DNA of 49,701 nt, taken from Candidatus Methanoperedens sp. (GTDB lineage Archaea > Halobacteriota > Methanosarcinia > Methanosarcinales > Methanoperedenaceae). The notes beneath the pieces are model-generated. The model was given only the letters and a program-made list of their open reading frames with translations, was not told where the DNA came from and ran no database searches. The stretch spans positions 1 through 49,701 of the forward strand of contig VEPM01000032.1 in the NCBI GenBank assembly GCA_012026795.1, given 5' to 3'. The position numbers were made by a program, and so were the translations under genes. Below, one piece after another: positions 5,185 through 26,869 of the stretch. Numbering within the stretch: position 1 is the first letter of the stretch; the number at the start of each line of letters is the position of its first letter.

Positions 5185-6204
5185 TTACACTGCATAGATC
5201 CTTTTTAAAGCCATGAGAGCATGTAATGTAATCCATTTACTCGGCTTTCCTTTCTGTTCTATATTAACAAGAAAGCGCCCATTGAAAGTGCTTTCAAGCT
5301 TCCATCTGCCCTTTTCATCCTGCTTGGAAAGTATAAGCCCCACGGCTTCCTGCATCCTCCTGTCCCTGCATCCCAGTTTTGTTAGTATCCCCAGTACTTC
5401 CAGAACATCGGTGTTGTACATCAGGGGAAAACCGAACTCAAGCCATGCAGGGATAGATACGCGTTGAATGTTATGGCTTCTTTTGAAGATGTGGTGTTTG
5501 AGCAGGTATTCTGCACCTTTTCCCATTGTTTCTTTTATATCGGAAGATCTTCTACCAGAAGGGATCCCGGCCAGCGCCTTCAGCGCCTTTACAACACCCA
5601 TGTGGCAGCTATGCCTTCTCCAGCAGCGCTGCCTTTTTTCATAAGGCCAGCCTTTTGGTGCCTCCCTGATCCGATCGTCAAACCGCGTATATTTGACGAT
5701 CCAGTCTATCCCCTGCTGAACTCTTCTATCCTCAAGACATCCGAACCTCAGCAGGCACCAGACCATGTTCCCGGTCAGGCAGGGCACTACATTGGCGTGC
5801 TCGCCTCCGTCTTTTCCGCCCAGATACGAGAATCCGCCGCTTTCCCTGTCCTGTGAATACTGGAGGATGAACTCGCAGGCTTTCCTTATGCGCTCATCGT
5901 TCCCGTCTGCGGCTAGTTCAGCAAGGATGATGAACTGCCACACGGTTCCCTTGTATTTTGAGTGCTCATAGAAATCCTGTGGCTTTCCCCAATAACCCCC
6001 ATCCTCCTGAAGGGATAATATCCGGGGAACCACACCTGTTTCCATGATTTCAGCTTTTGCCTGCCTCACTTCCACACTGTCTTCAGGCACCTCAAGGAGG
6101 TTGGCCAGGGCAAAATATCTGACAGAGGGATCATCTTTTTCCAGCAGCCAGTCTGTGGGATCCGCATTCAGCACCGATCTCCAGTTGTCTTGTTTCCTCG
6201 GCAT
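5185..6204 (-). CDS. Squalene cyclase/prenyltransferase-fold (alpha-alpha barrel) protein
   Basis: 339 residues. Repeated helical pairs carry Gly-Gly-Tyr/Phe and Trp motifs (DGGYWGKP near 68, SGGFSYLGG, GRWKLESTFNGR near the end), as in the terpenoid cyclase/prenyltransferase alpha-alpha toroid. Homologues are often annotated as prenyltransferase/squalene oxidase repeat proteins and sometimes mislabelled NifH. The N-terminal DPTDWLLEKDDPSVRYFALANLL is typical of the archaeal family. The DXDD motif of true squalene-hopene cyclases is not visible, so cyclase activity is not claimed. A TATA-like CTTTTATAG lies about 30 nt upstream of the start. Function unknown beyond fold. Confidence 0.8.
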   Translation of the reverse strand: MPRKQDNWRSVLNADPTDWLLEKDDPSVRYFALANLLEVPEDSVEVRQAKAEIMETGVVPRILSLQEDGGYWGKPQDFYEHSKYKGTVWQFIILAELAADGNDERIRKACEFILQYSQDRESGGFSYLGGKDGGEHANVVPCLTGNMVWCLLRFGCLEDRRVQQGIDWIVKYTRFDDRIREAPKGWPYEKRQRCWRRHSCHMGVVKALKALAGIPSGRRSSDIKETMGKGAEYLLKHHIFKRSHNIQRVSIPAWLEFGFPLMYNTDVLEVLGILTKLGCRDRRMQEAVGLILSKQDEKGRWKLESTFNGRFLVNIEQKGKPSKWITLHALMALKRIYAV

Positions 6205-6298
6205 CTTTAAGAGTAATTATGACGAACTATCTATAAAAGGATCGGTCCGCTATGTATAATAACAATAAAATTGCACTCATACCGCTGGCAAGGGATCC

Positions 6299-6532
6299 AT
6301 GAGTCCTATGACCGGCATCAACCTGCTTTTTGGAAGTGTAATACTGGAAACGCAAGATGCTCCACTGAACTATCTTTATCTATCACTGAACCTTGAAGAA
6401 CTTGGAGTTGAAGCCGGAGAAGAGGAAATTCTAATTGATTCTGATGAAAAGGCGGAGAAATTTGAATTTTTAGGTTCTCCAAGTATTAGAATAAATGGAA
6501 AAGATATTCAGGAAGAAGTGATCGATACATAA
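6299..6532 (+). CDS. Thioredoxin-fold (DUF2703-like) protein, possibly degenerate
   Basis: 77 residues. The second half (LEELGVEAGEEEILIDSDEK...FLGSPSIRINGKDI) matches small thioredoxin-like proteins in which a CPNC-type motif sits near the N-terminus and a cis-Pro SPxIRINGxDI lies later. Here the expected Cys motif after the first strand (LLFGS...) is replaced by VILETQDAPLN, with no cysteine anywhere in the protein, and the C-terminus stops soon after the cis-Pro segment. Either it is a non-redox member or it is a decaying gene. The start could also be the ATG 9 nt later. Confidence 0.5.
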   Translation: MSPMTGINLLFGSVILETQDAPLNYLYLSLNLEELGVEAGEEEILIDSDEKAEKFEFLGSPSIRINGKDIQEEVIDT

Positions 6533-6607
6533 AAAGGTTAAGAAATGACTTTCTTTTATCCGTTGAGAAATAAAAAGGCATTCGATATCTCTTTCAAGGT
6601 AATTGAA

Positions 6608-6681
6608 TGCCCAGACCCGGACTTGAACCGGGGACATCTGCGTCTTCAGCGCAGCGCTCTCCCAGGCTGAGCTATCTGGGC
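6608..6681 (-). tRNA. tRNA-Phe (GAA)
   Basis: 74-nt cloverleaf. Acceptor GCCCAGA pairs with TCTGGGC, discriminator A. The anticodon stem CTGCG/CGCAG encloses loop CTGAAGA with anticodon GAA. T-arm CCCGG-TTCAAGT-CCGGG. No intron, and CCA is not encoded. A TATA-like TTTGATATA lies about 30 nt upstream. Confidence 0.96.
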
Positions 6682-11964: not shown

Positions 11965-13140
11965 TTATTGTAACAAGTACCAGACCAGGATCAGTATTAT
12001 TAATAGTATTATTGCATACCAGACATAATTACTGCTCTTTTCTTCTTCAACCTTCGGCTGTGGCCTTGGCGCCTCAATCCTTGGTGCAGGCCTTGGTTTT
12101 GGCGGCTCTGGCTTTGCCACGGGTTCAGGCACTGGCTCTGGTTCAGGCTCTTTGACTTTTTCTTCCACAGAGCCTGATATGAACGGGCTTTGAACACCAG
12201 TTAATACTGCCATAACACGAACTTTTCCTGTAAGGCTGTTATCTACTTTTGCGCCCCAGATGATTCTCTTGGTATTTGGCACTTTATCCATTATCAATTC
12301 ACCTGTGACCGCAACTTCTTCCAGTGTCAGGTCTTCGCCTCCCACAATATGGATAAGCACACCATAACAATCGGAAATATTTGTAACGTCAAGCAGTGGT
12401 GTACTGATGGCCTGTGAAACAGCTTTAATAACTCTCTCGTTACCATCCCCCTCACCAATACCTATCGAAGAGATACCGCCGCGTTCCATTACAGCGCGAA
12501 GGTCCGCATAGTCAAGGTTCACAAGGCTTGGCTGGGTGATAGTATCAGTAAGATTCTTTACGAATGCACCAACGAGTGCATTGGCAACATTAAGGGCTTC
12601 TTTTAAAGGCAGGTTTCCTGCAACTTCCCTTAATTTTGAGTTATCAATAATTACTACAGAGTCACAGGATTCTGCAAGCAGTTTTATTGCTTCTCTTGCT
12701 TTCTCCCTTCTTGACATTTCAATTGTAAATGGGATTGTGACACAGCCGATGGTAAGTGCGTTAACGGAGCGGGTTAGTTCTGCAACAACCGGTATTGCGC
12801 CGGTTCCTGTTCCGCCACCCAACCCGGCGACCAGGAATACAAGATTTGTTCCATCAAGTTCGGTTCTTAGTTCATCAATGTTCTCTCTTGTGGCCTGCGC
12901 ACCCATTTCCGGGTAGCCACCGCAGCCGTGACCCTTGCATATTTTCTCCCCGAGTAATATCACTTTATCAGCTTTTTGAACGTAAAGATGATTGACATCG
13001 GTATTTGCTGCAATTATCCGTCCGCCTGTAATACCTTTTTCTGCAATCCATGTAGTAATATTACAGCCTGCACCACCCAAGCCTACGACGGCAACTGATG
13101 GTTTTGCTGCTTTTGCAAACTCTTTTAGATCTGTAACCAT
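11965..13140 (-). CDS. ftsZ: FtsZ-family tubulin-like GTPase with C-terminal membrane anchor
   Basis: 391 residues. The N-terminal GTPase domain carries the tubulin signature GGGTGTG at 108-114, VGLGGAGCN near 19 and NTDVN near 46. The T7 synergy loop NLDYAD is at 208-213, so both halves of the inter-subunit GTPase site look intact. After the core (about 1-322) is a Pro/Glu/Lys-rich linker (EPEPEPVPEPVAKPEPPKPR and more, to about 368). It ends in a hydrophobic helix, 372-390 (YVWYAIILLIILILVWYLL). Standard FtsZ ends in a short peptide binding FtsA or SepF; this one would anchor itself in the membrane. Strong SD (GGAGG) and a TATA box upstream. Monocistronic. Alternatively it is a specialised FtsZ paralogue rather than the division FtsZ. 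Confidence 0.9.
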   Translation of the reverse strand: MVTDLKEFAKAAKPSVAVVGLGGAGCNITTWIAEKGITGGRIIAANTDVNHLYVQKADKVILLGEKICKGHGCGGYPEMGAQATRENIDELRTELDGTNLVFLVAGLGGGTGTGAIPVVAELTRSVNALTIGCVTIPFTIEMSRREKAREAIKLLAESCDSVVIIDNSKLREVAGNLPLKEALNVANALVGAFVKNLTDTITQPSLVNLDYADLRAVMERGGISSIGIGEGDGNERVIKAVSQAISTPLLDVTNISDCYGVLIHIVGGEDLTLEEVAVTGELIMDKVPNTKRIIWGAKVDNSLTGKVRVMAVLTGVQSPFISGSVEEKVKEPEPEPVPEPVAKPEPPKPRPAPRIEAPRPQPKVEEEKSSNYVWYAIILLIILILVWYLLQ

Positions 13141-19565: not shown

Positions 19566-20486
19566 CTATAGGATCATGTCGTTGTTAGTTATAGTACAGG
19601 TCTTAATTTCACCGCCTGTTATGTAACCACTGCAATCACCTGAGTATGAATCAGAATAATCCCATCTGGAATATTCTCCTACATAATAGTAGCCCTCATA
19701 GACTGTTACATTAGTGCCCGGCTCATCATTACCGGGGAACGATTGCCATTCGTCAGATGATACATACATCGTGAAATCGGATGGTATAGCAGTGCCACCG
19801 TTGTCGTTGATCACTTTTTTGATAACTGTTATTTGAGCCTTCGGTCTGTCGTCGTTGGTTATAGTGCAGGTTTTGGTTTCGCCCAAGTTAATTTGACCGT
19901 TGCACTCTGGTGAATATGACGAGATATAATCTTGGTTCCAGTCTTCGTACACGCTATAGTATCCCTGACCAATTTTTATATCGGTACCAGTTTCAGAACC
20001 TGAGAATGACCACAATGAAGGGTTGTTACCGTATATTGACATTGTGAAGTTAGATGCATTTGCCGTGCCTCCGTTATCATTAATTACATGTTTGATGACT
20101 TTTAAATGCGGAGCTATATCATCATTGGTTATTACACACGTTTTAGCTTCGTTATTATTTATGCGTCCCGAGCAACCCGGTGAATATGATACATTATAGC
20201 CTTTTACCGCAAGTTCAGCTACTTTATATTCACTATTTTTCATAGTAACAGTTGTTCCGGTCTCTGAACCACTGAAGATAGCGGGTGATGGATCTTTGGC
20301 TGTAACGGTTGCTGAAAAATCAGATGCTTTCATTGATCCGCCGTCATCATTGATTACGTTTATGAAAACTACCAGCGTTGGTTGTTTATCTGAGGCTGCA
20401 TAAACTTGGAAAACGTTGCCCATAAGCAATATAGTTATTGCAGCTATGGACAGCAGCACAAGTTTTGTTTTGTTTCTAACAATCAT
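19566..20486 (-). CDS. Secreted protein of three prealbumin-like repeats
   Basis: 306 residues. Signal peptide 1-31 (LVLLSIAAITILLMGNVFQVYA). Three homologous ~90-residue repeats begin near 37, 128 and 219. Each has the plan VxKxVINDNGGT...SDFT...GSETGT.V...GYY.V.E...YxxSYSxxCSGxI..GExKTCTITNDD. This is the prealbumin/transthyretin-like fold of SpaA-type or DUF11-like surface proteins. Two Cys per repeat suggest one disulfide each. SD AAAGGAGAT is 6 nt before the ATG. The gene has a leader of about 190 nt from promoter element B. No C-terminal anchor is visible, so it may be free or associated with the S-layer. Function unknown. Confidence 0.8.
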   Translation of the reverse strand: MIVRNKTKLVLLSIAAITILLMGNVFQVYAASDKQPTLVVFINVINDDGGSMKASDFSATVTAKDPSPAIFSGSETGTTVTMKNSEYKVAELAVKGYNVSYSPGCSGRINNNEAKTCVITNDDIAPHLKVIKHVINDNGGTANASNFTMSIYGNNPSLWSFSGSETGTDIKIGQGYYSVYEDWNQDYISSYSPECNGQINLGETKTCTITNDDRPKAQITVIKKVINDNGGTAIPSDFTMYVSSDEWQSFPGNDEPGTNVTVYEGYYYVGEYSRWDYSDSYSGDCSGYITGGEIKTCTITNNDMIL

Positions 20487-20776: not shown

Positions 20777-20854
20777 TTTATTTAATAAATATGAAGAATG
20801 TATTTATATGTGATCCAATTAATAACAATGTTCAAGAGAGAATATAATAATATC

Positions 20855-22981
20855 ATGGAAAAAAGATGTTATTTTATGAATGAATTTAATGTAGATCCTG
20901 ATGAAATTAAATTTTATTTAGAATCAAAACCTGAGAACATTGATGTGGTACTTGAGAAAGCGGAAAAATTGCAGGGATTGGATTTCGGAGATATTGCCAC
21001 ACTTCTTCATATTAATCCCGATCCCAATAATAAAGATTTTAACACCCTACTAGAAACTGCAAAGCGTATCAGAAGCGATATTCTTGGAAATGAAATAAAC
21101 CTGGCTGTTCCTCTTTACGTTACAAATTATTGTATGAATAAATGTCCTTATTGTGCATTCAATCGTAATAATTATAGTAACGGCAGAACCCGTTTGACTT
21201 TTGGCCAATATTGTAAAGAAATTGAATATTTGATAGCGAAGAATTTTAAGACAATAGAGCTGGTTTTTTCAGACGACCCGGAAATTGGCATACAGGAAAT
21301 GACGAAATATATAGAGCATCTGAGAAATAAACTTGGACAGGGAGAAAATGGGATGATTGGTTTGAACTCTTCTCCATTATCACTGGAAGACTATAGATCG
21401 TTGAAAAGTAGGGGTTTAGATATCGTACTTTCATGGCAGGAAACATATCACAGGAAAACTTACGACGAGCTTCATAAAGAATGTGTTTCTAAAAAAGATT
21501 TCCAGTATAGATTAGGAACCCAGGAAAGAATATATAATAGTGGAATAAGAAATGCCGGGATTGGTGTACTGCTGGGCTTGTATGATTTTAATTTCGAAAT
21601 CATGGCATTAATCCGGCATGGATTGTATTTAAGGGAAAAATTTGACCGTTTTCCCATAGTTGGGATACCTCGTTTGAAAAAAGCCAACAGAATGTTATTC
21701 CATCCAGAGCAGGAGTATCAAGTTTCTGATAACCAGCTGAAACTTATCACTGCAATCATCAGGCTGGCATTACCATACTCGCATATTTTCATAAGTACGA
21801 GGGAAAATAAAGATTTGATAATAGATTTATTAAAGGCAGGTGGAGGATCCATCTCGGCGGCTCTTTGCAGCGTTGCTCCAGGTTATATCACCAATAAGAA
21901 ATCCGGATTGAATCAATTTGAGGTTTCTTCATATGAGCCTGCTGAAATGGAACAGAGTTTAGAAAAAAATAATTTTATTCCTACATATAATCCTCCATTT
22001 TTTGACAATGTTGATCTAAAATCATTGATTCCTGAGATATTTAAGGGAAATGCAGCTTTATTTATAGGTTCTGGATTAACCGGTGCTGTAACAGACTGCA
22101 ACTCTTCTATCTTTAAAAAAATAGCAGATATTTTAACTATTAAAAATATTATTAACATAAATTGCGATAGCATTCTGGAAGATGCAATTAAACAGCGTAG
22201 GGGCAGAATCAATCTAATTCAAGAAGATAAGGATATGCTGGAAATGGAATCAGATACAACAATTTACAAAATGCCCAGTTCCATTGATCCGCTTATGTTC
22301 AATAAACTCGAGGAGCTTTTTTTTACAAGAGCTATTTTATTTGTTGGATATGATATAAATAATGATAAAATTAATACCATTATTAAAAAAACCAAGCAAC
22401 GTTTAGAGAATAGGGTTCGGTTCTATGTTATTATAAGGAATCCAGCAGAAGTTGAAATTCGTTTTTGGAAGAGCAATAATGCTAAGATATTCAACGTAGA
22501 TATCGAACACTTTTTCGAAATCCTGGCTGAAAAACTCAGAACAGATCCCATAATAAACAGATATACCTTTAATGCACTGTGGGAAGTAAGAAAACAGATG
22601 GAGATGAACTCAGTAAGTCTTGCCGCAAGGTATAGGGGAACACATGACATAGAGGCTCTGGAGTCTATTTTAGAAAAATTTGAAGTAGCTCTTAAGGATG
22701 AGATAACAAGAGAAACGGGTGTATTCTGGGGTTATGATTTTGATTTCCACGTAGGGATATCTTCAGCAAGCGGAAATAGTTCATTTTATGATATTTGCAG
22801 GTTGCTGTATAGATCATTATCTACATTAAGCAGGCAAGCTCAATCCATGGAGACTTTAAAACAACATAGAGAAATACTGGATGCCATCAGGAATAAAGAT
22901 GAAGATAGGGCAGTTAAACACATGGAAGATCATATTGATTATGTAAGGGAAATCTGGGAGCGGGGATTAAATCCCAGATAA
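20855..22981 (+). CDS. Radical SAM (ThiH/HydG-like) - SIR2-like - FCD fusion protein
   Basis: 708 residues from ATG 20855; ATG 20876 is equally possible, and the frame opens at 20798. Numbering here is from 20798. Domain 1, about 65-400: ThiH/HydG/BioB-type radical SAM with the cluster motif C112-x3-C116-x2-C119 in YCMNKCPYCAFNR. The barrel follows (IELVFSDDPEIG, VLLGLYDFNFEIMALIRHGLYL, ALCSVAPGY). Domain 2, about 415-580: SIR2-like Rossmann segment with ALFIGSGLTGAV, ININCDSILEDAI and ILFVGYDINNDKINTII. The usual K-x-H-G-S motif reads KMPSSID, without the catalytic His. Domain 3, about 585-722: FCD ligand domain of GntR/FadR regulators with the metal set D647, H651, H690, H712. No HTH is present. 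Radical chemistry plus nucleotide and ligand sensing in one chain is inferred; the substrate is unknown. Convergent with the AAA-HEAT gene. Confidence 0.78.
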   Translation: MEKRCYFMNEFNVDPDEIKFYLESKPENIDVVLEKAEKLQGLDFGDIATLLHINPDPNNKDFNTLLETAKRIRSDILGNEINLAVPLYVTNYCMNKCPYCAFNRNNYSNGRTRLTFGQYCKEIEYLIAKNFKTIELVFSDDPEIGIQEMTKYIEHLRNKLGQGENGMIGLNSSPLSLEDYRSLKSRGLDIVLSWQETYHRKTYDELHKECVSKKDFQYRLGTQERIYNSGIRNAGIGVLLGLYDFNFEIMALIRHGLYLREKFDRFPIVGIPRLKKANRMLFHPEQEYQVSDNQLKLITAIIRLALPYSHIFISTRENKDLIIDLLKAGGGSISAALCSVAPGYITNKKSGLNQFEVSSYEPAEMEQSLEKNNFIPTYNPPFFDNVDLKSLIPEIFKGNAALFIGSGLTGAVTDCNSSIFKKIADILTIKNIININCDSILEDAIKQRRGRINLIQEDKDMLEMESDTTIYKMPSSIDPLMFNKLEELFFTRAILFVGYDINNDKINTIIKKTKQRLENRVRFYVIIRNPAEVEIRFWKSNNAKIFNVDIEHFFEILAEKLRTDPIINRYTFNALWEVRKQMEMNSVSLAARYRGTHDIEALESILEKFEVALKDEITRETGVFWGYDFDFHVGISSASGNSSFYDICRLLYRSLSTLSRQAQSMETLKQHREILDAIRNKDEDRAVKHMEDHIDYVREIWERGLNPR

Positions 22982-23010: not shown

Positions 23011-25506
23011 TTATATATTTTTATTCTCATCACATTTTGCGATGATTTGATTACCAATCCAGATATGTTGGTTAATAATTGGCAACCCCTTCCACAACAC
23101 CCCTGTAGCACCAGGCGCTTTCTTCTCTACTTCATCCAGCATCTCTGCGGCGCGCTCGCAGTACTTTCTGTATGCGTTGAGGTCTCTTTTTAAATGATTG
23201 AAATCCTTTTCTTTTGAATTCTGCACTTCCTTCAGCGCATTTCCGAGATTTTTCACGGCTTCAAGGAGTTTTTCTTTGCTATAAGAATTTTCAACTGCAC
23301 TTTTTGCCTCTTCAAAATATTTTTGGACTTCAGCTTTAGCTTCTTCTTTCTTAAAAGTCAGCATATAGAAAGAGCGATAAAATGGAAGACAAAATCTTGC
23401 TGGTTGCGAATTTGTTTCTTCCCTTGATGATTTTTCAAAAAATTGCAGAGCTCGCTCTAATTCCTTTCTGAAATTCTCTTCATCTTTTGATTCTGTTGCC
23501 CTGAAAACATACGCTCTTCCGAGAGAATGGTTGGCATATGCTCGAACAATGCTTTTTTCGTCTTTTGTGAGGGTAAGAAGGTTTTCTGCTATCTGGTTCT
23601 TATCAGTAACATACGGAAAGACAGAACCAAGAGCTTCTGCTGCTACGCTCCGCACATCGGTATCCTTATCATTTATTAGGTCAAGAAGGGCTTCTGTTGC
23701 CTGATCCTTATCTGTGACATGGGGAAAGGCAGAACCAAGTGCATACGCCGCACCAATTAACACAAATCTATCATCATGTTTTATCAGAACAAGCAGTTCG
23801 TTCCATGCCCGAACTTTATCAGTAACCTGGGAAAAAGCCGAACCAATGGCTTCAACTGCATTCCTTTGCACAAAGATGTCCTTATCCTTTGCCATGGTTA
23901 GCAATGCTTCTGTTGCCCGGTCTTTATTAGTAAGGTGGAAAAAGGAGGAACCAATGGCTTTAGCTGCACTTCTCCGCACAAAAATATCCGTATCCTTTGC
24001 CATGGTTAGCAGCGCTTCTGTTGCCCGGTCTTTATTAGTAAGGTGGAAAAAGGAGGAACCAATGGCCTCTGCGATAACACTTCTCACTTTCCAGTTTTTA
24101 TCCTCTGTAAGGTTAAGCAGATCATTTGTTGCTCGATCTCTATCAGTAAAATACTTAAAGGCGGAACCAATGGCTTCTGCGATGACACTTCTCACCTTCC
24201 AGTCTTCATCCTTTATAAGATCAAGCAGGTCATTTATTGCCCGCTCTCTATCAGTGAGGTAAATAAAGGCGGAACCAATGGCTTTTGCCGCCTCCCTTCG
24301 TATTTCCCATTTTTCATCTTTTGCAAGTTTTAGCAGGTCATTTGTTGCCCGCTCTCTATCAGTGAAAACTTTAAAATTTTTCCCCATTTCATATGCCGCT
24401 TCTTTTCTCTCAGATACTTTTCCGCTCTGTGCTTTTCTGTAAATTTCGGGTTCATTAATTACGCATCTACGTTCATTCTTTGCATATCCATCACAAAAAT
24501 CTGAGCCATTTTTTCTTGCCCAATCCTCATTTTCTATTACATCTCTTGCCCTTACTGTGCCTTTTATCTTAGCAAAGGATTTTCTGAAATCTGATTTAGT
24601 AAGCGGCCTTATTTCAAGCGAGTATTTTTTAATATCATCAAGAGGTAAGTTTCCGATTTTATCCCAGTCATTTAGTTCTCGCACCATATTATTGATAGCT
24701 TCCTTGCACAGAGTCGCAATATCGCGGCCTGCAAATAATTTCGAGACACAAGTTTCCGCTATCTTCTGCATATCTGCGTCTAATTCCATACCTTTTTTCA
24801 GGGTATTCAGTTTAATCATTTCCATAACAGCCTGCTCATCAGGCAGAGGGACGTAAATCCGCATCTCGAACCGGCTGAGCACTGCAATATCAAGGTCCCA
24901 TGGGGTATTAGTGGCAGCTATTGTAAGAACATTCTGGCTTGATTTCTTATTCTGTAATCCCTGCATTTCAACAAGCAGCGTTGACAATACTCTTCGCGAA
25001 GCTTCAGATTTATCGTTACGGATACCCCCAATGGAATCAAATTCATCCAGGAAGATGATAGATGGAGCCTTTTTTCGAGCGACATTATATAAAGCAGATA
25101 TGATCTTCGAAGACTCGCCATAATATTTAGACAATATATCTCCGGTTTTTACCTTGAAAAAAGTGGCTTTCAAAGTTCCAGCAGTTGCCGCAGCAAGCAG
25201 GGTCTTACCTGTTCCGGGAGGCCCAAAAAGCAGAATGCTGTTATATGGCTCTATTGCATCAGGTTTATTTTCAATTATACTAATTAAATTAGACTCATTG
25301 ATGGTATTCCTGGCATTATCAAGACCTGCAATATCCTCCCAGGTTACATTTGTTGATGTTATCAAGCTATTAATATATTTCTCAAAATTCCCTTCCCCTT
25401 CTTTTACCATAGTATCATAATTTTCCGCTTCATGAGCATTCTGTGTAATTTTTTTTTGTTCTGTGCACTCTCTCTTTATCGCTTCTAATTCATCAGATAG
25501 GCGCAT
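23011..25506 (-). CDS. AAA+ ATPase with HEAT-like repeat array
   Basis: 831 residues. An N-terminal coiled coil (1-45) precedes an AAA+ module (about 53-330) of the Vps4/proteasome-ATPase type: WEDIAGLDNARN, Walker A GPPGTGKT (95-102), Walker B IIFLDEFD (150-157), sensor AATNTPWDLD, arginine finger SRFE. From about 370 to 660 there are roughly eight HEAT-like (PBS-lyase type) repeats with a 36-residue period: DRATxxLLxLxKDxxWxVRxxAAxAIGSxFxxxT. A helical, charged C-terminal region of about 170 residues follows. The HEAT array probably grips a protein partner that the AAA+ ring remodels. There is no protease or nuclease domain. It faces the radical SAM fusion gene across a 29-bp AT-rich gap. 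Confidence 0.88.
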   Translation of the reverse strand: MRLSDELEAIKRECTEQKKITQNAHEAENYDTMVKEGEGNFEKYINSLITSTNVTWEDIAGLDNARNTINESNLISIIENKPDAIEPYNSILLFGPPGTGKTLLAAATAGTLKATFFKVKTGDILSKYYGESSKIISALYNVARKKAPSIIFLDEFDSIGGIRNDKSEASRRVLSTLLVEMQGLQNKKSSQNVLTIAATNTPWDLDIAVLSRFEMRIYVPLPDEQAVMEMIKLNTLKKGMELDADMQKIAETCVSKLFAGRDIATLCKEAINNMVRELNDWDKIGNLPLDDIKKYSLEIRPLTKSDFRKSFAKIKGTVRARDVIENEDWARKNGSDFCDGYAKNERRCVINEPEIYRKAQSGKVSERKEAAYEMGKNFKVFTDRERATNDLLKLAKDEKWEIRREAAKAIGSAFIYLTDRERAINDLLDLIKDEDWKVRSVIAEAIGSAFKYFTDRDRATNDLLNLTEDKNWKVRSVIAEAIGSSFFHLTNKDRATEALLTMAKDTDIFVRRSAAKAIGSSFFHLTNKDRATEALLTMAKDKDIFVQRNAVEAIGSAFSQVTDKVRAWNELLVLIKHDDRFVLIGAAYALGSAFPHVTDKDQATEALLDLINDKDTDVRSVAAEALGSVFPYVTDKNQIAENLLTLTKDEKSIVRAYANHSLGRAYVFRATESKDEENFRKELERALQFFEKSSREETNSQPARFCLPFYRSFYMLTFKKEEAKAEVQKYFEEAKSAVENSYSKEKLLEAVKNLGNALKEVQNSKEKDFNHLKRDLNAYRKYCERAAEMLDEVEKKAPGATGVLWKGLPIINQHIWIGNQIIAKCDENKNI
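23891..24066. repeat. Near-identical 108-bp tandem units inside the HEAT array
   Basis: The 68 bp from 23891 recur 108 bp further on (23999) with two differences, equal to one 36-residue repeat. Neighbouring repeats are far less alike, so this copy arose recently by tandem duplication or was homogenised. Confidence 0.85.
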
Positions 25507-25723: not shown

Positions 25724-26299
25724 ATGAACCCTGAATTGATCAATGGCTGGGAAAAGATCGTAGGACATGACAGAATGAAAATAATTTCAAGTAAATTTTT
25801 TGATAGCAGGCTTGATTTAGAGTTTCCAGATCTTCAAAAAGGCAGCTATGAATATAAAAAATTGAGCATAACTTCTGAACTTGAAAATAATGCAAATATG
25901 TTAATTGAATTTGAAAGAGAAGGTTTCTTAACTCATGATGAAGTTTCAAGAATGATTGAAGTATCAACCCAGAATATTATAAGTAATAATATGCCCGGTG
26001 CTCTTTTTGAGACTATCTCCATAATAATGGATGATGAAATATTGAAGAATATTAAGAATAAGTTGACCGAAATCGAAATAAAAGGTTTCTTGACCCACGA
26101 TGAAGTTACAGGAATTGTTAAAGTATTAGCCCGAAATATTACAGATAAGAGCTTGTCTGGTGCTCTTTTTAAGTATATTTGCATTATGCTGGACGATGAA
26201 GAATTTAAGGATCAAGAAGAGGAGCGGCTTGAAATGCTGGTCAAGTACATCAGGTGGTGTCTGGATAGTCTCAATATGAATGAAAAACAGTTGGAGTAG
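25724..26299 (+). CDS. Unknown protein with internal duplication
   Basis: 191 residues. A segment of about 63 residues occurs twice: EREGFLTHDEVSRMIEVS...MPGALFETISIIMDDE near 65-107, and EIKGFLTHDEVTGIVKVLA...LSGALFKYICIMLDDE near 128-170. Each copy is helical with a conserved GFLTHDEV motif. The EF-hand-like look of the motif does not extend to a DxDxDG loop, so calcium binding is not claimed. The C-terminus is charged. A TATA box (TTTATATT, 25691-25698) is about 30 nt before the ATG and there is no Shine-Dalgarno, so a leaderless mRNA is likely. Divergent from the AAA-HEAT gene. No family recognised. Confidence 0.65.
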   Translation: MNPELINGWEKIVGHDRMKIISSKFFDSRLDLEFPDLQKGSYEYKKLSITSELENNANMLIEFEREGFLTHDEVSRMIEVSTQNIISNNMPGALFETISIIMDDEILKNIKNKLTEIEIKGFLTHDEVTGIVKVLARNITDKSLSGALFKYICIMLDDEEFKDQEEERLEMLVKYIRWCLDSLNMNEKQLE

Positions 26300-26869
26300 T
26301 TATCTAAGAATCAATTTTATTTTGAAACTGCAATTGGCTTGATGTACTCTTTCAAACAGGTCAATATCTCCAAATCGTTTTACTATATTTTTGATCACGG
26401 GTTCGCAGGTGGTTTCACAATTTTTCTTCTCACATGACGTTCCTTTTATGTCCATATTGATCTTACGCCCTCCTCTGGTAATGATTGCATTATGATATAC
26501 TTTGAAATCAGCATCCAGGTAGTATTTTAAAATATACTCAATCCCATCCCCGAAATCCGTAATCGATTCAGGAGGAAATTTTCCTTTGGTAGAATCGAGC
26601 TTATCGCTGATGCTCAGTATTTCGCTCCCGAAAGGAGATGCCACATACATTGTGTGTTTCTCGCCAATAATAGCTTCCCTTTCAAACAAAATAGCCAGGC
26701 GGGAAGAAACGAGGTCTGTAACCGATTCTGAGACTTTTTCTTTGCGGATATTCAGACTCTCTGACAGCTCGATATTTCTATAGGATCTCTTGCACAGTTT
26801 TTCTAAAATTTCTAACCTGCATTTCCTGCTGAGTGTTTTAGAAAGATCCATAAAGGACTTAGTGGACAT
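26300..26869 (-). CDS. Winged-helix (ArsR-like) transcriptional regulator
   Basis: 189 residues. The N-terminal ~75 residues form a winged helix: LSRKCRLEILEKLCKRSYRNIELSESLNIRKEKVSESVTDLVSSRLAIL, then a wing with EKHTMYVASPFG. The C-terminal ~100 residues contain three or four cysteines (CEKKNCETTCEPVIKNI), a possible metal or redox site. Archaea use such two-domain regulators widely. Its stop abuts the stop of the plus-strand gene before it with no gap. Target genes unknown; the divergent gene at 26982 is one candidate. Confidence 0.72.
   Translation of the reverse strand: MSTKSFMDLSKTLSRKCRLEILEKLCKRSYRNIELSESLNIRKEKVSESVTDLVSSRLAILFEREAIIGEKHTMYVASPFGSEILSISDKLDSTKGKFPPESITDFGDGIEYILKYYLDADFKVYHNAIITRGGRKINMDIKGTSCEKKNCETTCEPVIKNIVKRFGDIDLFERVHQANCSFKIKLILR

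Follow-up and report, generated by a model that had tools for sequence, protein, structure and literature searches.

Results

The stretch of DNA analysed here (the window; 49,701 nucleotides of contig VEPM01000032.1 of Candidatus Methanoperedens sp.) contains on its plus strand an open reading frame of 727 aa (20798..22981), the real start of which is probably 20855 or 20876; in the alignment, the start at 20876 has an equivalent in two homologues of the protein. The order of Pfam domains in the chain is Radical_SAM (residues 107-267, 7.8e-11), BATS (290-371, 1e-4, barely over the cut-off), SIR2_2 (500-563, 3.7e-9; 37.2 bits against the PF13289 cut-off of 24.5) and FCD (594-714, 1.7e-21; 77.3 bits against the PF07729 cut-off of 24.3). 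Each of them scores above the curated gathering score, which bears out an earlier note, made from the letters alone, that had placed radical SAM, SIR2-like and FCD parts in one polypeptide here; its coordinates were right. These Pfam ranges refer to the 727-aa frame; the residue ranges of the three parts given below and the numbers C86/C90/C93 take the ATG at 20876 as residue 1.

The first part is a radical SAM barrel of the ThiH/HydG/NosL type (20876..21988, plus strand, residues 1-371), recognised by Pfam (Radical_SAM and BATS), by PDB matches and by AF2/Foldseek. It is followed by a shortened SIR2_2-like domain (22007..22531, plus strand, residues 378-552), which is supported by the Pfam match and by alignments with ThsA and DSR2, and then by the FCD domain (22544..22978, plus strand, residues 557-701; Pfam core 22577-22939), with PDB matches of the FadR/PdhR type. 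The G+C content of the gene is 35%, compared to 41% for the window.

Full-length copies of the fusion were found at four loci in separate assemblies (the window, G009, L025 and G022), with an identical domain order and not as separate genes, as a survey of homologues proposed in the earlier note could have revealed. Their identity to the window protein is 86% (G009), 84% (L025) and 70% (G022). The public-genome scan located the G009 copy on contig NZ_FZMP01000195 of Candidatus Methanoperedens nitroreducens Mnv1 and the L025 copy on VEPD01000261, a 4.4-kb contig (4367 bases) filed under a Ruminiclostridium MAG. The neighbours on the latter contig are a SpaA_2 gene and a HEAT gene, 94% and 80% identical to those of the window and in the same order; on the basis of this synteny and identity we believe that VEPD01000261 is probably a mis-binned Methanoperedens contig, i.e., a binning error in a public genome. 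Thus, all four copies appear to be of Methanoperedens origin. All are open and can be aligned end to end, and the dN/dS values (0.10-0.36) in the barrel, SIR2 and FCD parts alike indicate purifying selection throughout.

The gene is rare: it is present in 3 of the 31 Methanoperedens genomes searched, and no further copy was found among 393 genomes sampled across the phylum, where the other matches were only PylB-like and archaeal HydG-like proteins. The scan of viral contigs found no relative; a search of plasmids with the SIR2+FCD half returned no fusion and matched only bacterial FCD domains of the FadR/GntR type. Bacterial genomes were covered by a pattern scan, which distant fusions would escape. 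A candidate for a further full-length copy, L027, was rejected; it consists of separate HydG-like and HydE-like genes. Among the papers searched, none mentions radical SAM together with an FCD domain, let alone all three domains, and none deals with Methanoperedens and SIR2; the earlier statement that no described protein has all three domains agrees with this search. The fusion is real, conserved and of rare occurrence. Its low G+C, the lack of FCD elsewhere in the genus and the bacterial origin of the nearest solved FCD relatives fit a gene that was laterally acquired or assembled.

Convergent with the fusion gene lies a gene whose product combines a Vps4/CdvC-like AAA ATPase with HEAT repeats (23011..25506, minus strand; Pfam), and upstream, divergent from it, a gene for a SpaA_2 (prealbumin-like) surface protein (19566..20486, minus strand). 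No operon is obvious around the fusion gene, and there is no operon partner pointing to a pathway. In the survey of conserved neighbours, also proposed earlier, a HEAT orthologue adjoins the fusion in all four loci and is its only consistent neighbour; the SpaA_2 gene adjoins it in three and is missing beside the G022 copy. The HEAT gene is convergent in three loci; in G022 it is divergent and devoid of the AAA half, and its product is that genome's best match to the AAA-HEAT protein of the window. This is suggestive of a HEAT protein as a partner of the fusion protein; it falls short of proof because the fusion-bearing genomes commonly carry paralogues of HEAT and AAA proteins. To speak of a new system, for which the earlier note took the protein as its best candidate, is too strong for a gene that otherwise stands alone.

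The barrel contains the CX3CX2C motif reported earlier (C86/C90/C93, at about 21131-21154) in a TIM-type fold, the combination that characterises the radical SAM superfamily. The cluster cysteines and the QETY and STRE motifs, with T308/R309, are invariant across the four copies; STRE, Q188 and E189 are invariant over the 12 aligned rows of the family, HydG and ThiH. With HydG and ThiH rows added to the alignment, AF2 gives the barrel a pLDDT mostly of 80-96; the model from the four family members alone had a pLDDT of 35 and was unusable. The structure prediction suggested in the earlier note thus yielded a confident HydG/ThiH/NosL-like barrel, but the SIR2 part (pLDDT about 30) and most of the FCD part remained without a usable model. 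The best match in both sequence and fold is HydG of Thermoanaerobacter italicus (4wcx; 2.8e-56 at 31% identity in the PDB search, 7.8e-27 by Foldseek on the AF2 barrel), followed by the 2-iminoacetate synthase ThiH of Thermosinus carboxydivorans (7pd1; 1.2e-32); ThiH has a TM of 0.83 on the target, and Foldseek also matched NosL. None of the three corresponding NCBIfam models reaches its cut-off: ThiH TIGR02351 gives 211.6 bits of 380 (the homologues 202-223), HydG TIGR03955 175.5 of 312, and NosL TIGR04158 52.8 of 400. A tree of 21 barrels places the fusion family in a clade of its own (100/100), on a stem of 1.82 and apart from ThiH and HydG; the HydG/ThiH labels were set there by the C-terminal motif and not by HMM, and owing to long branches the exact position is uncertain.

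Comparison of the pockets is instructive. The barrel shares with ThiH the fold, the SAM-cluster motif and the equivalents of T299 and R300 (T308 and R309) and of S318 (S327; Thr in G022), whereas R306, S321 and E158 are replaced by Ile or Met, by Leu and by Asn, respectively, in all four copies. The change of R306 is the stronger point since some clostridial ThiH rows have Val at S321. In the tyrosine-bound ThiH structure, R306, which stabilises the tyrosine phenolate, and a one-residue insertion mark tyrosine as opposed to tryptophan lyases (PMC9046217). The tryptophan lyase NosL, about 20% identical to the fusion barrel and similar in fold, likewise has no R306 and keeps the substrate-holding Arg; however, it is one residue shorter around S318-S321 (PMC9046217), whereas the segment of the fusion is as long as in ThiH and HydG. 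With HydG the barrel shares CX3CX2C, QETYH, STRE and the Asn at the position of ThiH E158, but it has neither the PHTIS motif nor the R306 equivalent, and the compensating Glu of the HydG barrel is Val130. The HydG motif of the C-terminal auxiliary [4Fe-4S] cluster is absent as well: the family stops matching at CTAC, where the CTxCYRxGRTGDRFM domain starts, and has SIR2 and FCD in place of that cluster domain. Finally, the SAM-contacting GE after the second strand in ThiH and HydG is S132-D133 in all four copies, and SAM binding or catalysis could for this reason be changed or lost.

The FeFe hydrogenase domain PF02906 has no match in G000, G009 and G022, and we reject a HydG role for this reason. 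Full-length ThiG was not found (partial matches only, 40-82 of 247 positions) and full-length Thi4 is present in 12 of 12 genomes, so that thiazole synthesis appears to run via Thi4 and the ThiH role in thiamine synthesis is rejected too. The tyrosine chemistry of the earlier note is thus weakened or unsupported: R306 is lost, the clade lies apart from ThiH and HydG, and neither an FeFe hydrogenase nor a full-length ThiG was found, so that tyrosine is an unlikely substrate. Among radical SAM proteins the barrel falls into the group of aromatic amino-acid lyases, but its pocket is changed and it is probably not a tyrosine lyase.

The SIR2_2 match in the window copy comprises only the C-terminal half of the profile; the assignment is nevertheless secure because the G022 copy matches nearly the whole of it (4-138 of 141, 1.5e-17, 64.5 bits). 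The landmarks are GSG at 398-400 and N-C-D just ahead of ILED (433-436), and Pro467 replaces the catalytic His. PADLOC matches and alignments show a resemblance to the SIR2 domains of the NADases ThsA, DSR2 and KomC, which share with the fusion the SIR2_2-type GSG, N-x-D and ILFVGY; their catalytic residues, however, are not conserved in it, and the distance from the glycine motif to N-x-D, counted from the alignment, is ~50 residues shorter than in ThsA. Where SIR2_2 proteins occur by themselves in the genus, they are only remotely related to the segment. The pocket set of SIR2 NADases is N, Y, D, H (PMC11263360); at these positions the window has N,C,D,P, G009 N,C,D,H, L025 D,C,N,H, and G022 N,D,D,H, i.e., no copy has retained the Tyr. 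Since the pocket residues vary between copies, a conserved NADase role seems unlikely, and the NAD sensing that had been supposed earlier finds, like an NADase activity, little or no support in a shortened domain of this kind. At the same time, RRGRINLIQEDKDMLE is invariant across the four copies, and the domain is therefore retained for something; such invariance next to variable active-site residues would fit a kept, non-catalytic role.

The metal ligands of the FCD domain (D621, H625, H664, H686) are invariant in all four copies, and Pfam finds no HTH domain along the chain, both as reported before. The ligands align with N144/H148/H192/H214 of Ps5454 and D146/H150/H195 of DgoR (PMC7674646). 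The nearest solved relatives are bacterial regulators of the FadR/PdhR type, and the NCBIfam regulator models match the chain only via their C-terminal, FCD part. The GntR/FadR regulators NanR, LldR, PdhR and DgoR thus have the FCD family and metal ligands in common with the fusion, but the latter carries FCD behind a radical SAM-SIR2 chain and has no winged-helix DNA-binding domain. In the genus Methanoperedens FCD occurs only within this protein. Judging by its ligands, no other functional site outside the barrel is conserved as securely as this putative pocket for small acids, which would depend on a metal.

Discussion

We tentatively prefer, as the most plausible reading, a cytosolic radical SAM enzyme of amino or organic acids which is tuned in cis by the FCD sensor, with SIR2 as a relay or spacer. 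The sequences themselves supply the domains and their order, the cluster and substrate-Arg motifs, the FCD ligands, the variable NADase residues and the purifying selection; from these we infer SAM cleavage and catalysis, the substrate class, the sensing and the allostery. The barrel would bind a [4Fe-4S] cluster and SAM and generate a 5'-deoxyadenosyl radical, which would attack a substrate held by Arg309. In ThiH the corresponding residue binds Tyr by its amino and carboxyl groups, and NosL has a counterpart as well. Since the far end of the pocket is changed, the substrate would differ from tyrosine and may be another amino or organic acid. At its D-H-H-H metal site, the FCD domain may bind a small carboxylate (the substrate, the product or a pathway end product) and would switch or tune the barrel within the same chain. 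The reduced SIR2 domain between them would be no conserved NADase but a relay, which either binds a nucleotide or is purely structural. The three domains are co-conserved over up to 30% divergence. Points against this reading are the S132-D133 in place of GE and the lack of an operon partner; moreover, we know of no case in which an enzyme is regulated in cis by an FCD domain.

It is tempting to go further and propose a single-chain protein that both makes and senses. In this scheme an FCD domain taken from bacterial transcription factors would read the product or the substrate of the radical SAM enzyme in its own chain, an enzyme with a new specificity; the signal would pass via a disarmed SIR2 and regulate the enzyme or a HEAT-repeat partner without DNA binding. 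That a radical-generated product is sensed within the same chain, as the earlier note supposed, is possible; the complete scheme we regard as rather improbable.

Somewhat more doubtful still is the proposal that the FCD metal site is itself catalytic and replaces the auxiliary cluster of HydG, binding or converting a radical product (dehydroglycine- or glyoxylate-like) on a mononuclear metal. The family leaves HydG exactly at the start of the auxiliary cluster domain, a helical metal domain stands further along, and D621/H625/H664/H686 are invariant; but FCD domains are generally known as ligand sensors and not as enzymes (PMC7674646), the SIR2 domain intervenes, and a channel between the sites has no structural support.

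We are equally sceptical of a signalling protein in which a catalytically dead barrel would act as the scaffold or would sense SAM. The GE to SD change in the SAM-binding motif, the loss of ThiH/HydG pocket residues and the very long stem of 1.82 could be explained in this way, but the cluster Cys, QETY and STRE persist in all four copies, and the barrel is under purifying selection. A stress or defence effector, with SIR2 as an NADase or binder of an NAD-derived signal, FCD or the barrel as the trigger and the HEAT/AAA protein as a partner, is unlikely to the same degree: the SIR2 segment is closest to those of ThsA, DSR2 and KomC and the HEAT-repeat orthologue adjoins the fusion in all four loci, but the domain is shortened, its N/Y/D/H set varies with the Tyr lost throughout, and PADLOC yields only generic SIR2, AAA and HEAT matches, which leaves membership in a defence system unsupported. 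Low G+C and rarity in the genus would also suit an assembly error or a decaying pseudogene, but these, like a chance joining, are excluded: the gene is intact and full-length in each of four separate assemblies, with dN/dS well below 1 per domain.

Each part of the fusion is of a known kind; what is new is the domain combination and the pocket. The architecture of this protein of methane-oxidising archaea appears to be undescribed, and its barrel, with the altered pocket, appears to branch deeply and separately in the ThiH/HydG/NosL group. If the protein is active, a new radical SAM reaction would have to be sought, and its FCD domain would be one with a role outside transcription.

Additional observations

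Another gene of the window (11965-13140, minus strand) encodes a GTPase of the Tubulin/FtsZ family (Pfam Tubulin, FtsZ_C). At 25724-26869 the window contains two abutting genes on opposite strands, the first for a protein of 191 aa and the second for a weakly ArsR-like one of 189 aa. The pair also occurs in G007 and G024; the fusion gene was not found in either of these genomes. As in the window, the G007 pair adjoins an AAA-HEAT homologue, and the contig ends inside the AAA-HEAT gene.

A Vps4-like AAA ATPase (AAA and Vps4_C) of G024 is joined to a C-terminal DAC (diadenylate cyclase) domain (L043, contig C31, 6708-8507). Its AAA half is 54% identical to the AAA-HEAT protein of the window (23011-25506), and DAC stands in place of the HEAT repeats. 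Relatives of the AAA half are present in G006 (C44) and G011 (C303); the DAC domain is established in the G024 protein alone. Directly before the AAA-DAC gene, L043 encodes a coiled-coil-rich protein of 203 aa (6010-6621), ESCRT-III-like by eye and with no significant Pfam match.

HydG-like proteins of 501-525 aa in the archaeal family f9 (L050-L056; genomes of about 1.0-1.6 Mb) have TAR for STR in the aligned rows, and their C-terminal cluster motif is CTAGYRC instead of CTACYR.
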